This document shows positions 2,841-6,620 of a stretch of DNA of 64,000 nt, one piece after another. The translations under genes were made by a program, and so were the position numbers. Source of the stretch: Candidatus Raymondbacteria bacterium RIFOXYA2_FULL_49_16 (GTDB lineage Bacteria; Fibrobacterota; OXYB2-FULL-49-7; XYB2-FULL-49-35). The notes beneath the pieces were generated by a model. That model worked only from the letters and a program-made list of their open reading frames with translations, did no database searches and was not told where the DNA came from. The stretch lies in the NCBI GenBank assembly GCA_001789205.1, contig MFYT01000070.1, positions 58,169 through 122,168 on the forward strand, read 5' to 3'. How positions within the stretch are numbered: position 1 is the stretch's first letter; every line of letters begins with the position of its first letter.

Positions 2841-2887
2841 TACTTTATTAGGAGGGTTTGAACGCTGTGCCAAGCCGTTCTGCTATT

Positions 2888-3126
2888 GGCGTTTTTTCTC
2901 AGACGGTCTCAGAACTCCCAACGCCTTCCTGCATGCGGCAATCGAAGTTTTCTTTATTTACGGCTTCCCGGAAGTACGAAATGTATGTGCGGATGGGCTG
3001 GAATTGGCTGAATCCTTACCCAGGGGTTGGCTGGATGTGACAAAAACTGTCGCATAAGAAAGAAATATGAATTTCGCTTTTGGAGGTGGTTTATGCTGTT
3101 GTCAGGAAAAATAGTATCTGCTTACG
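2888..3126. repeat. 239-bp direct repeat, copy 1
   Basis: Matches 4537-4775 over 239 bp in the same orientation with 7 substitutions and no gaps (about 97% identity). Both copies end at ...GTATCTGCTTACG, exactly where the hairpin elements at 3126-3261 and 4776-5053 begin. Reading frames are broken. On the minus strand one short frame (IAACRKALGVLRPSEKKRQ) could be a decayed C-terminus. The copies bracket the Bro-N gene and its hairpin element. Together with the element at 3126-3261 it fills most of the 600-bp gap between 2781 and 3381, in which I see no intact gene. Confidence 0.9.
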
Positions 3127-3261
3127 CTAAGGTTTGGTGAAGTACCCGGCGTTGGACAGCGTGACGGAGCTTTGCGACATGACACGCTGTATTCAGACGC
3201 CGGGTATTTGCCGAAGGCCAAGGGCGGCTTTGCGCCCGCAGCATCCAAACCTTTGTTGGGT
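3126..3261 (-). other. Nested-hairpin element B, attC-like recombination site
   Basis: On the minus strand it begins with ACCCAAC (3255-3261), which fits the integron R'' core RYYYAAC. Three nested perfect stems follow: AAGGTTTGG at 3129-3137 with 3245-3253, TACCCGGCGT at 3143-3152 with 3197-3206, and ACAGCGTG at 3156-3163 with 3183-3190. The 136-bp length is within the known attC range. The expected far core GTTRRRY is poor (GTAAGCA). It lies downstream of the Bro-N gene in the same orientation, where a cassette attC belongs. The alternative is a structured RNA or transcription-terminating fold. Confidence 0.5.
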
Positions 3262-3381
3262 GCTTTAAGCCGGAATGCTACCATATTTCAAATTCTTGTT
3301 TGCGCCGTCTTCTCTTTTGTCTTTCTCTTGCAGCGCCCATTCTTTTTCGGCTCGGCGGAGGATGAGCCGAGCCGTGGTTCT

Positions 3382-4206
3382 CTAATCTTTTATTCGTTTT
3401 CTATCGGTGTTATCCAGATAATTTTTAGAGGAAATAACCTTTTTCTTCGTCTGATCCTCAATATCTTTCCGTGTTCTTCCGGCAACTGCTCCGCCATCTT
3501 TTGCGTCGTTGTGTAACAATTCAAAACCGATGCTGTTTCGGTCTTGGTGTAATTTTGTTGTTGTCGCCTCGCCAAGCATGGTAAGAATCAGCTCAATATC
3601 GTTCATGTGATCCCGAAGGTTTTCCCGGTCAAGATTTTTGAAACGTTTGTATTCTTCTACGGTTTTTTCAAAAGTTCCCTTCATGATTTCATTCGTTAAA
3701 ATCGCATATTCGAGATCAGACTGAGTACCGCGATTACTCCACTCATCTGTTAGGCTCTTTCGCACGGCTATGCCACGGATACGTTTATCGATCCAGTCTT
3801 TCGGATAGCCCTTTTTCTGATAAATCTCCTTCATCCTGTGCATGGCGAGTTCAGGATTTTCAATCTCATCAATGCGTTCCTTGCCGACCCTCGCAAGCCA
3901 CCGTTTTAGCGGCTCTACCTTGGGGGACGGTACCGACTGAATAATGCGAAATATTGTCTCGGTTTCCGCGCAGTCGGTTTCCCGCAATTTTCCGTCAGGA
4001 GCGGGCAATTTCAACTGTCCGATTTTTTCGGACACTTCAACGTAACCCTCTGCAACTAGCTTCTTTTTCAAGTCGTTCCAATATTTACGCGGTCGCCCGC
4101 CACCCACCAAAACTTCAATGATATCAATGATAGAAAACCACCATTGGTCATTATGAAGAACCTTTCGAATATGCTTTCCCTGAAAAACTGCGATTTTATT
4201 TTCCAT
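3382..4206 (-). CDS. Bro-N domain protein (phage-antirepressor/DinD-like)
   Basis: 274 residues. The N-terminal ~100 residues (IAVFQGKHIRKVLHNDQWWF, then a GGGRPRKYWNDLKKKL segment) match the BRO/antirepressor N-terminal DNA-binding fold. The C-terminal half is helical and Lys/Glu-rich, as in DinD-type proteins of mobile regions. ATG at 4206 is preferred over TTG at 4224 because GGAAGG lies 8 bp upstream of it. The gene sits alone between two copies of a 239-bp repeat and is followed by an attC-like hairpin, as expected for cassette cargo. Its role is unknown; DNA binding is inferred from the family. Confidence 0.72.
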   Translation of the reverse strand: MENKIAVFQGKHIRKVLHNDQWWFSIIDIIEVLVGGGRPRKYWNDLKKKLVAEGYVEVSEKIGQLKLPAPDGKLRETDCAETETIFRIIQSVPSPKVEPLKRWLARVGKERIDEIENPELAMHRMKEIYQKKGYPKDWIDKRIRGIAVRKSLTDEWSNRGTQSDLEYAILTNEIMKGTFEKTVEEYKRFKNLDRENLRDHMNDIELILTMLGEATTTKLHQDRNSIGFELLHNDAKDGGAVAGRTRKDIEDQTKKKVISSKNYLDNTDRKRIKD

Positions 4207-4536
4207 CAATTGTGCCTTCCACAATTTTAATCTCTTCGATGCGATATGATTTCAGAAAGGATCCGGTTGAACGAAGCCGTTTCGCGGAATCCTGATTCAG
4301 CTATGGGTTTTCAAAGCTGGTGATCCGTTAACGGCCCGCTCACTTCAAGTAATATAATCACTGAGTAAGCCAAAGTAAAGTGATATGAGAGCATCAAAAC
4401 GAGCGAGGTTAGCCATTCGCGGTTCCAAAGGGACAATGTTTCGCCAGAACCTTTTAATGTAAGGCTTTCTATTGGCCGGCATCATGAGTGTGTCATTCTT
4501 TAAGCTGTTTGCAGAGCTCTACCCATGATTTGGTCT
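4207..4536. other. Non-coding stretch upstream of the Bro-N gene
   Basis: No convincing gene on either strand. On the minus strand, a short frame continuing out of repeat copy 2 (RQTKSWVELCKQLKE, stop near 4494) looks like the tail of a lost protein. The rest must hold the Bro-N promoter; no clear -35/-10 pair stands out. Confidence 0.5.
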
Positions 4537-4775
4537 GGCGTTTTTCCTCAGGCGGTCTCAGAACTCCCAACGCCTTCTTGCATGCGGCAATCGAAATTTT
4601 CTTTATTTACGGCTTCCCGGAAGTACGAAATGTATGTGCGAATGGGCTGGAATTGGCTGAATCCTTACCCAGAGGTTGGCTGGATGTGACAAAAACTGTC
4701 GCATCAGAAAGAAATATGAATTTCGCTTTTGGAGGTGGTTTATGCTGTTGTCAGGAAAAATAGTATCTGCTTACG
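4537..4775. repeat. 239-bp direct repeat, copy 2
   Basis: Same orientation as copy 1 at 2888-3126, with seven substitutions. Outside the 239 bp the flanks are unrelated on both sides, so this is a discrete unit. On its high-coordinate side it abuts structured element A (4776-5053), just as copy 1 abuts element B. The repeat therefore marks a junction reused by two different inserts. It may be an insertion target, or have been duplicated by recombination. Confidence 0.9.
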
Positions 4776-5053
4776 GTCGCGCAGCCAGAAGTGCACCAGG
4801 AGGGGCTTGGGAACCGCTACCAGAGAAACGGACCCGACTGCCGGAGCGATTGCGGCCGAACCCGCGACGGAGGGCCGCCTTAGCGGCCCGACATGACGCG
4901 GGTGAGGATGGGGCGCGCGCCGGCCTGCCGTCAGGACAGGCCGGACCAGCGCCCCACAGCAATCGCGGAGGGTAGTGCATTTGGGAGAGGGCAGGCAGAA
5001 ATTCCATAATTATATTATTCTGCCTGACCGAACCTGGCTGCGCTTTGTTGGGT
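4776..5053 (-). other. Large multi-branched element A, attC-like core
   Basis: On the minus strand it starts with ACCCAAC (5047-5053) and has a 10-bp outer stem, 4779-4788 with 5034-5043. Inside are a hairpin 4993-5000/5018-5025 and a three-way GC-rich fold: closing stem GCGATTGC 4846-4853/4959-4966; arm one 4860-4866/4897-4903 capped by 4872-4878/4883-4889; arm two 4910-4916/4949-4955 capped by 4920-4927/4937-4944. All are perfect pairings. Position relative to the gene at 5197-6180 equals that of element B relative to the Bro-N gene. At about 278 bp it is longer than typical attC sites. Long frames across it are products of its GC content. Confidence 0.5.
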
Positions 5054-5096
5054 GCAGTACTGCCAGCGTGCCTTTTGCTTTGTTTTGGCCAGCGCG
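5047..5096. repeat. Left inverted boundary of the 5197-6180 cassette
   Basis: Positions 5047-5068 match the reverse complement of 6323-6344 at 20 of 22 bases, both starting GTTGGGTGCA. A second block GGCCAGCGCG at 5087-5096 matches the reverse complement of 6292-6301. The A+T-rich gene at 5197-6180 thus sits between imperfect inverted termini carrying the core GTTGGGT, as expected for cassette boundaries or transposon-like ends. Confidence 0.6.
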
Positions 5097-5196
5097 TGCC
5101 TTTTTCAACCGAACCAGGGATGGTGAGGAAGTTTATTAACATGTTTCTAACCTGCTAACCTATGAATACGTTTTTGCCTAAAATGAATCAAAACAA

Positions 5197-6180
5197 TTAA
5201 TCGATTTTAATAAGGTTATATATTGCAGGATCACTACGATATGGATCTAAAATAGAGCTGCATTGACAATATCGTCGAATCTCTGTGGGGGATTTTTCAA
5301 TGGCCTTCATTAGAATCTTTGTTCCTTCTTCTTTTTTGCCTCCTGTTATATTGACAAGAGCCTCATTAAAGAGAATCACTGCTTTGGCGTGTCCTACTTT
5401 TTCACGAAAGTTGGCTGCTCGAATTAATTGTCTGGCTTGCTCATGCTCGCCCTTTAAGGATTTGCATAATGCGAGGTTTGATAGGGTAAATACATCATAC
5501 CGACCTGAATGTAAAGCGCTATTTAATACCGTTATCGCATCATCAACGAAACCATGATGAAGTAAAAGAAAGCCTGCATTATTTTTATCGGGCGACATAA
5601 CTTCAAACAAACCTCTTTTTTTTACAAAAACTAAAAAGGAAATACCCATCAAGCCTAACAATAATGCGCTAAATGGTACCAAATACGTGAAAATATCCCG
5701 TAGCTTATCTTTGGGGGTTTGCACCGTTGACTTAGGTTTTTCTTCTACTCCGAGACTTGCCTCACTTCTCACAAAAACCTTTGGTTTGTCTGGTGCCGTA
5801 AGAAGTAGGTTTAGTGTAAAGCCTTCATTTGGCAAAAGAGATTCGAATGTTAGTTTTATGCTTTTAGGATTAATTTCTCTTGATGTTTCTCTAATTCCGG
5901 CATTAACGTCTAATGCAAAATCCTTTATTTCGGCTGTAGAAAATAATACTGAAACCAAAATGTTTTTTGCTCCAACGCCCCCATCGTTTTTAACTTTAAT
6001 CGTTGCGAAAGTAACCTCTTGACTACCACCTTTAAACGATGCGCTTTGCTCAATTAAGAAAACCACTTTTTCGGTTTTGTTTTGATCTGGTTCTTTCGTT
6101 AAATAATAGATTGCAATTCCACCTAATATTGTTACAGCAAGCGAGGCACTTGCGCCAAGTATAATGTCTTTCCATTTCAT
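5197..6180 (-). CDS. Membrane protein with C-terminal TPR-like region, unknown function
   Basis: 327 residues. An N-terminal membrane anchor (LGASASLAVTILGGIAIYYL) precedes a beta-rich domain of about 120 residues resembling CARDB/Ig-like folds in pattern. A second membrane helix (LVPFSALLLGLMGISFLVFV, near residues 172-191) follows. The last 120 residues have TPR-like helices (FVDDAITVLNSAL, EHEQARQLIRAAN). ATG at 6180 follows GAAAGAAGG. The gene is clearly more A+T-rich than its neighbours and lies between inverted GTTGGGTGC ends, which points to recent transfer. No known family is recognised, so a role in defence or stress is only a guess. Confidence 0.7.
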   Translation of the reverse strand: MKWKDIILGASASLAVTILGGIAIYYLTKEPDQNKTEKVVFLIEQSASFKGGSQEVTFATIKVKNDGGVGAKNILVSVLFSTAEIKDFALDVNAGIRETSREINPKSIKLTFESLLPNEGFTLNLLLTAPDKPKVFVRSEASLGVEEKPKSTVQTPKDKLRDIFTYLVPFSALLLGLMGISFLVFVKKRGLFEVMSPDKNNAGFLLLHHGFVDDAITVLNSALHSGRYDVFTLSNLALCKSLKGEHEQARQLIRAANFREKVGHAKAVILFNEALVNITGGKKEEGTKILMKAIEKSPTEIRRYCQCSSILDPYRSDPAIYNLIKID

Positions 6181-6620
6181 GGTACCTTCTTTCGAAAAGT
6201 GGGTAATATTGCTTTTTGATTTGATCTAAAATGAAATTAGCCGCAATATGTTTCCGTGTTTATTTGACCGCCACGATGGCGGCCTGCCTTTCGCGCTGGC
6301 CTGTCTTTTGTCTTTCTGTCTTCGCTGGCAGCATTGCACCCAACGGTGTAGTGACGAATATTTTGTACATCTTCCGGGGTTGCAAACAGAACATACCCTC
6401 ATCCTCCCTGGCGTGAAAGACGCATACCGTTAAAATCGCCTATCCGTCACTCCCTTGTCAACACTTCAGTTACAACTGATTCCCGCCGGATTTCTCCATT
6501 ATTGCTGCATACGCGCCGCGCCCCTTTTAGATTCTATTTTTCAACTTGTTTAAACCTAAATTTAGAATTATCTTTTTATACATATAACAGTCAAAAACCG
6601 CCTGACAAATTGGATTACAC
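6181..6620. other. Intergenic region between the cassette-like gene and RNA ligase
   Basis: No gene is supported here. It holds the right inverted boundary (6292-6344) and a perfect ACCGCCA/TGGCGG hairpin near 6269-6284. From about 6530 it becomes an A+T-rich stretch that probably contains the RNA-ligase promoter. Two overlapping plus-strand frames in 6231-6433 show no protein-like features. Confidence 0.6.
6292..6344. repeat. Right inverted boundary of the 5197-6180 cassette
   Basis: Mate of 5047-5096 in inverted orientation. ACCCAAC at 6338-6344 reads GTTGGGT on the minus strand, the expected GTTRRRY core at the 5' edge of an integron cassette whose gene is read on that strand. The cargo start codon at 6180 is 160 bp further in. 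Confidence 0.6.

Follow-up and report, generated by a model that had tools for sequence, protein, structure and literature searches.

Two decayed gene cassettes of a probable integron-like recombination system in a Candidatus Raymondbacteria genome

Bacteria collect single genes mainly, as far as is known, through integrons, and the usual search for these requires a domain specific to the integron integrase, IntI. Here, a 64,000-nucleotide (nt) stretch of Candidatus Raymondbacteria bacterium RIFOXYA2_FULL_49_16 (contig MFYT01000070.1, positions 58,169 to 122,168; hereafter the window) was analysed, and we consider it likely that it contains two cassettes, now decayed, of a site-specific recombination system resembling that of integrons. 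The cassettes are not those of an IntI integron, and the window copy is a relic: each cassette ends at the leader of a tyrosine recombinase gene whose family is a sister of IntI and lacks the IntI-specific domain. Taken with its relatives, the evidence leans towards a second widespread integron lineage in Bacillota, Bacteroidota, Ignavibacteriota and the window's own phylum, whose integrase would have split from IntI before or without the IntI-specific domain, whose HARP-like domain would read the folded site, and which searches keyed to the IntI domain would miss.

The cassettes, their folded sites and attI

The cassettes were first described in an earlier note, made from the letters alone, as two integron-like cassettes without an integrase. 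Their parts, and the remnants around them, are as follows.

3382-4206, minus: cassette 1 gene, 274 aa from ATG, with a Bro-N domain (PF02498, E 2.9e-08)
5197-6180, minus: cassette 2 gene, 327 aa, with a putative N-terminal membrane anchor (by eye)
6338-6344, minus: start core of cassette 2, GTTGGGT (R' half), read from the sequence
6323-6344, minus: left terminal arm of cassette 2, which pairs with 5047-5068 (22-nt inverted repeat I1, 91%)
4774-5068, minus: attC-like site 2, outer arm and R'' ACCCAAC (5047-5053), its final base being the cassette's last G
5034-5043 and 4779-4788, minus: inner arms of site 2, GCGCAGCCAG/CTGGCTGCGC, 10/10 paired
3125-3261, minus: attC-like site 1, R'' ACCCAAC at 3255-3261, final G at 3125
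3245-3253 and 3129-3137, minus: inner arms of site 1, AAGGTTTGG/CCAAACCTT, 9/9 paired
6345-6400, minus: attI-like left half, ending ...TACAAAATATTCGTCACTACACC; 34 nt 91% identical to contig C11 (L007 2965-2998), gapped homology beyond
4680-4774, minus: attI right half (GTAAGCA, 4768-4774) and recombinase leader, copy 1; 98-99% to L007 79-181 and 2868-2962, where the recombinase start codon follows
3031-3125, minus: attI right half (GTAAGCA, 3119-3125) and recombinase leader, copy 2; 98-99% to L007
4645-4683, minus: recombinase gene remnant (linker region), 90% to L009 4643-4681, within the C109 recombinase gene region
4237-4601, minus: IS91-like transposase remnant and the element's downstream end, 90% (4237-4501) and 93% (4503-4601) to C44/L008; tblastn 82% to transposase residues 299-332
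2996-3034 and 2887-2952, minus: remnants of the recombinase gene (92% to L009) and of the IS91-like transposase (97% to L008)

Much of the earlier description holds. Both reading frames are confirmed, each gene is followed by a folded site towards which it is oriented, as in cassette arrays, and the guanine-plus-cytosine content of the genes (43.4% in cassette 1, 37.2% in cassette 2) departs from that of the window (50.3%). On the minus strand the R'' cores start at 3261 and 5053, the arms are perfectly complementary at both sites, and GTTGGGT stands at the 5' edge of cassette 2 (6344-6338). Folding as single-stranded DNA, which had been proposed as a check, gave z = -4.0 for site 1 and z = -5.6 for site 2, with 0 of 200 dinucleotide shuffles equally stable. 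When site 2 is joined to its own cassette's start, as in an excised circle (a construct made without one base, the cassette's last G), it folds with z = -9.1 into one long stem running through the R boxes. The termini of cassette 2 (6323-6344 and 5047-5068) are a 22-nt inverted repeat at a spacing of about 1.25-1.3 kb, with a score of 34 against a maximum of 24 among random 26-mer pairs (n = 20,000), and ACCCAAC, GTTGGGT and the 10-bp arms agree with the attC cores R'' RYYYAAC and R' GTTRRRY, which are looser in relatives (TAAC/GTTA). The inner arms of both sites pair without a bulge (for extrahelical bases in the L arm, no systematic scan was made); an Rfam search at the sites gave no match, and a profile search with the cassette 2 protein reached a TPR-like C-terminus at scores below cut-off only.

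Overlooked in the earlier note was a 240-nt direct repeat, 97% identical, lying directly 3' of both sites (2887-3126 and 4536-4775). Its first ~95 nt, from GTAAGCA (GTAAGCAGATACTATTTTTCC...), are found at two further places in the genome, both in contig C11; over the first 97 nt, 1 mismatch separates the window copies. At C11:2868-2962 this stretch is followed by ATG and a reading frame, MSQARVV...VEGRRWDRDRKLWILPRT, with which contig C109, carrier of a tyrosine recombinase, also opens; the stretch is therefore a recombinase leader. In C11, moreover, the left half found upstream of cassette 2 (6345-6379) is joined straight to GTAAGCAGATAC and the leader, forming an empty site: the window reads ...CCCCGGAAGATGTACAAAATATTCGTCACTACACC|GTTGGGT where C11 reads ...CCCCGGAAGGTATACAAAATGTTCGTCACTACACTA|GTAAGCAGATAC. 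The order in the window is thus attI left half, cassette 2, attI right half, so that an attI beside the recombinase is seen empty in C11 and filled in the window, and relatives diverge at a GTTA core. Because the leader and the joined empty site in C11 both carry the GTAAGCA half, the GTAAGCA (3125-3119, 4774-4768) that had been taken for the far core of a diverged attC is attI-derived and, judged from sequence, is the right half of attI, comparable with the TTRRRY that follows an ordinary integron's last cassette. The suggestion of a diverged or novel cassette type was accordingly a good guess as to the cassettes, which are real, and mistaken as to the odd core.

A third cassette lies in C11 and holds a pair of small genes whose N-termini are signal-like; it starts with TTGTGGGGC, has GCCCCACAAC as its R'' and runs up to the same leader. 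Its ends complement each other less well (score 20-24), and folding of its site is only moderate (z -2.2). Of the two cassettes in the window, cassette 1 is damaged, its start core having been lost because remnants of an IS91-like transposase, an intact copy of which lies in C44, replace its 5' part.

It could be argued that the elements are structured intergenic repeats (terminators, or sequences resembling repetitive extragenic palindromes or miniature inverted-repeat transposable elements) standing beside unrelated genes and spread by segmental duplication, and the near-identity of the 240-nt copies does mean that one of them arose by duplication. Sites 1 and 2, however, have the R'' core in common and differ in their bodies, inverted repeats stand at the cassette termini, 1.3 kb apart, and an empty attI exists, which together leave this explanation highly improbable; the genome-wide comparison on this point covered the leader.

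Several smaller observations concern attI and its surroundings. A search across the genome for the exact pattern ACCCAAC..GTAAGCAGATAC gave 0 matches, its allowed spacing being shorter than the true core distance. A match to attI in C59 is the start of an unrelated gene and was taken as chance, and the TTCGTC motif in attI is merely twofold enriched. In C11 the empty attI is separated from the next cassette by a stretch with a group II intron domain (RF00029; L007 2380-2438, minus), where an apparent intron-encoded protein tail is joined to the recombinase N-domain; an AbiEii toxin gene and a probable AbiEi partner (L007 3107-4430, minus) adjoin that attI on its upstream side.

A recombinase family beside IntI

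IntI is defined by an extra domain (PMC9668308), which is held necessary for integron recombination (PMC9668308, PMC8138268). No IntI lies in the window, as the earlier note had stated, and a search of all proteins of the genome, which is rated 100% complete, with the IntI model TIGR02249 found none above cut-off. What the phrase 'without an integrase' missed is that the genome encodes two members of a family sister to IntI, in contigs C26 (intact) and C109. Both fall short of the TIGR02249 cut-off of 265 bits (219.1 and 212.2 bits, respectively), aligning at model columns 3-180 and 235-315 and leaving ~181-234, the IntI-specific domain, unmatched, while the tyrosine recombinase catalytic core is present in C26 (PF00589, E 1.9e-44). 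The distance from KDR to HxLRH is 58-61 aa in every family member measured and 59 in both copies of this genome, as compared with 98-100 in six IntIs, three of them from this phylum, and 65-72 in five Xers; the IntI-specific insertion of ~40 residues is missing from the family. A maximum-likelihood tree, in which bootstrap values had not fully settled, places IntI in one clade (100/98), the family as a clade beside it (95/97) and Xer outside (100/100), so that the family is a sister clade of a monophyletic IntI; within the tree, L042, from a genome of the same phylum, pairs with the named Chitinispirillaceae sequence L081, which suggests Fibrobacterota as the likely phylum of the window. The enzyme is thus a sister of IntI and not IntI, the defining feature of which was tested for and is absent. 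Most family members share with IntI a C-terminal SPLD, unlike Xer, and the recombinase core matches the structures of XerA (4a8e and 5hxy, Z 22.9) and IntI4 (2a3v, Z 20.1).

Most members carry, in addition, 70-100 extra N-terminal residues with a G-x-x-W-x6-W motif. HARP-type domains are known to act on branched DNA, and the Pfam HARP model (PF07443) matches 14 of 23 N-domains at E up to 0.1, with scores below the curated cut-off wherever shown (23.3 against 25 bits for C26; others lower, or 24.8). The best sequence match in the PDB is the SMARCAL1 HARP domain (4o66, E 0.31). Five strands and two helices are predicted for the N-domain, the arrangement described for HARP (PMC4666394). Its top Foldseek rows include XPB and SMARCAL1 HARP among others, weakly (E 0.01-0.1), and the structural matches to XPB, SMARCAL1 HARP, UvsW and MutS-beta are likewise weak (Z 6-7) and equalled by eIF1 and other folds.

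With no IntI above cut-off in the genome, the window might still be a cassette cluster without an adjacent integrase (CALIN) of the ordinary kind, that is, canonical IntI integron cassettes whose integrase was lost, or which were thrown into a secondary site by an IntI elsewhere. R'' ACCCAAC and the start core GTTGGGT do fit canonical cores, and canonical IntI arrays occur in the same phylum (L158, L159). Against it stand the completeness of a genome in which no IntI scores above cut-off, and the fact that each of the genome's three cassette ends, the two of the window and that of C11, borders on the leader of one and the same non-IntI recombinase, at a junction resembling the attI-like cores of relatives. 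An ordinary CALIN is unlikely on these grounds, and the cassettes are better assigned to the IntI sister whose leader they adjoin. The canonical loci L158 and L159 have highly similar TAACAACGCGC / TAACGCCGCGC sites and exist alongside the domain-less lineage.

Two further observations concern the recombinase genes. After the C109 recombinase comes a truncated Bro-N-like gene (L009 3432-3752, minus), 38% identical over 81 residues to the cassette 1 protein. Upstream of recA, of a ComM/YifB-like gene, of IS91-type transposases and of both recombinase copies there is a palindrome, TGTGACAGGTTTTGTCACA, then TTATATTTA (C26, C64 with recA, C31, C21 and C77; 3036-3054 and 4685-4703 in the window). 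Control of the recombinase by SOS/LexA was considered and is unsupported, the palindrome lying upstream of recA (L143) but of neither lexA-like gene; it is possibly a damage-response operator of a new type.

Arrays and breakpoints in relatives

The comparison set comprised 80 fetched relatives and loci from the same phylum, with an array taken as at least three repeated intergenic sites in 6 kb. Such arrays lie downstream of the recombinase at 21 of 51 testable loci and upstream at 1 of 83 (Fisher p about 1e-9, a guide only, as the loci are partly related). In Pseudobacteroides cellulosolvens (L086) and Paenibacillus sedimenti (L101), the recombinase is followed by at least six mostly single-gene cassettes, each closed by a site of ~150-260 nt; single-gene cassettes with a folded site each are also found at L163, and the window adds two, one of them damaged. 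When the test was repeated on a previously unused Paenibacillus genome, 7 sites were counted downstream and 0 upstream. The 16 sites of P. sedimenti form three clusters, and since only 2 of 30 sampled Paenibacillus genomes hold a close match, the system is patchy. A simple AAC/arm/GTT hairpin scan, which gave 0.9 per 10 kb at array loci and 1.3 in controls and missed obvious arrays, was dropped.

Evidence that cassettes move comes from two sources. Firstly, related loci part company at the core: in two Paenibacillus genomes (L112/L122) 6.8 kb comprising flank and recombinase are 95% identical and similarity stops at ...GAAGTTATA (GTTA), L126/L127 (98%) stop at ...GTGTTA, and L089/L091 (84%) diverge within 15 nt of the core; L082/L092 and L057/L064 diverge shortly after the recombinase with no recognisable core there. 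Secondly, the start and end of each cassette are complementary to one another, as in cassette 2 of the window, where the ends are likewise a cassette-specific inverted repeat. In P. sedimenti, own pairs score a mean of 26.2, and swapped pairs a mean of 9.8 and a maximum of 15; in a second Paenibacillus genome with five cassettes the own-end scores are 31, 26, 10, 29 and 21 against 11.6, so that four of five repeat the pattern, and the fifth stretch holds transposases. Such co-variation between ends a gene apart is expected only if the ends meet, as they would in a circle. The outer-stem extension was also considered as a mark unique to this system and set aside: in a control of three class 1 integron cassettes the ends of two pair for ~5 nt past the R box, against about 12-15 nt here, a difference of degree.

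One must also consider that the cassettes may be passengers of IS91-like elements, their genes and structured ends copied by rolling circle and their resemblance to an integron coincidental. Remnants of an IS91-like transposase do lie in both 240-nt repeats, and an IS91-type transposase is directly downstream in some family members (L121, L124, L129). The array-bearing L086 and L101, however, have no such transposase there, cassette-specific end complementarity and GTTA breakpoints are not the expected product of IS91, the remnant breaks into cassette 1 instead of flanking both cassettes, and no intact IS91 copy was seen with ends coinciding with cassette ends; we regard this origin as very unlikely. 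As a separate matter, IS91-type transposases lie downstream of short-N clade members (L121/L124 5814-8289, L129, L107, L043, L045-L047), and the two copies from Geosporobacter share 99.9% identity over 2.5 kb.

Other points count against the integron-like system that we favour. Cassette 1 is without its start, the core in this genome is GTAAGCA, one T fewer than GTTAAGC, and attI lies 5' of the recombinase where other arrays have it 3'. The intact recombinase of C26 has neither attI nor array beside it, on a contig that ends 583 nt downstream, and the gene in C109 is interrupted by an in-frame TAG between the N-domain frame and the core frame. Over half of the testable loci have at most two repeated sites on the downstream side; and the IS91-linked members L121, L129, L045 and L047 share both the core and the missing insertion, so that possession of the recombinase protein alone does not amount to cassette capture. 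Finally, while the cassette ends, the joined empty site, the identity of the leader, the absent insertion and the arrays beside relatives can be read directly, we infer excision and insertion by the enzyme, no recombination having itself been observed.

Mechanism, reach and known systems

That the system works like an integron is nevertheless well supported by comparison of the sequences. The tyrosine recombinase would cut out a gene together with its 3' site, and in the resulting circle the cassette end (R'' ...AAC) would adjoin the start (GTT...) and fold with it into one long hairpin. The folded strand would be recognised by the recombinase, the HARP-like N-domain perhaps acting at the folded site in place of the missing IntI insertion, and the circle would be inserted into the attI beside the enzyme's own gene, with exchange at G|TT (here G|TA). 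In this genome attI lies on the upstream side of the recombinase gene, and cassettes are transcribed in its direction; the recombinase genes of the window would later have been deleted or broken, partly with the IS91-like element, leaving the cassettes and two leader copies.

In Firmicutes, IntegronFinder 2 reported one complete integron, that of Limnochorda pilosa (PMC9024848). Relatives of the recombinase described here head arrays in, for example, Paenibacillus and Clostridium, groups thought nearly integron-free, and if arrays are indeed headed by a domain-less sister of IntI, gene capture of the integron kind would be much wider than counted. The IntI domain would then not be needed for it, the step from Xer to integron would be open to study on living intermediates, and the idea that the HARP-like domain does the work of the missing insertion could be tested. 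In the full-text literature, preprints and most subscription journals lying outside the search, we found no description of cassette arrays beside domain-less recombinases, so a prior report is possible.

With integrons proper (IntI and attC, including those of archaea; PMC9668308) the system shares single-gene cassettes in one orientation, folded sites of the form R'' AAC ... R' GTT, an attI at G|TTRRRY beside a tyrosine recombinase, orphan genes and patchy occurrence. It differs from IntI integrons in a recombinase that lacks the IntI-specific domain and has a HARP-like N-terminal domain, from class 1 integrons in the longer complementarity of its outer ends (~12-15 nt past the R box, as opposed to ~5 nt in two of the three class 1 controls), and, in this genome, from archaeal integrons (PMC9668308) and other arrays in having attI upstream rather than downstream of the recombinase. 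Like cassette clusters without an adjacent integrase, the window has two cassette sites within 2 kb and no integrase beside them; unlike them, it has a matching non-IntI recombinase and an empty attI elsewhere in the genome. Elements of the IS91 family with a tyrosine recombinase gene have a core that belongs to the same clade and likewise lacks the insertion, and differ in a shorter N-terminus and a transposase directly downstream, where C109 has the Bro-N-like gene and C26 has none in the 583 nt to the contig end. XerA-like recombinases (NF040815, 'site-specific tyrosine recombinase/integron integrase', a double name which suggests that the model leaves the class undecided) have the same core fold, and C26 and some relatives pass the cut-off of that model; unlike them, this family sits at cassette arrays and combines its N-domain with a C-terminal SPLD of the IntI type.

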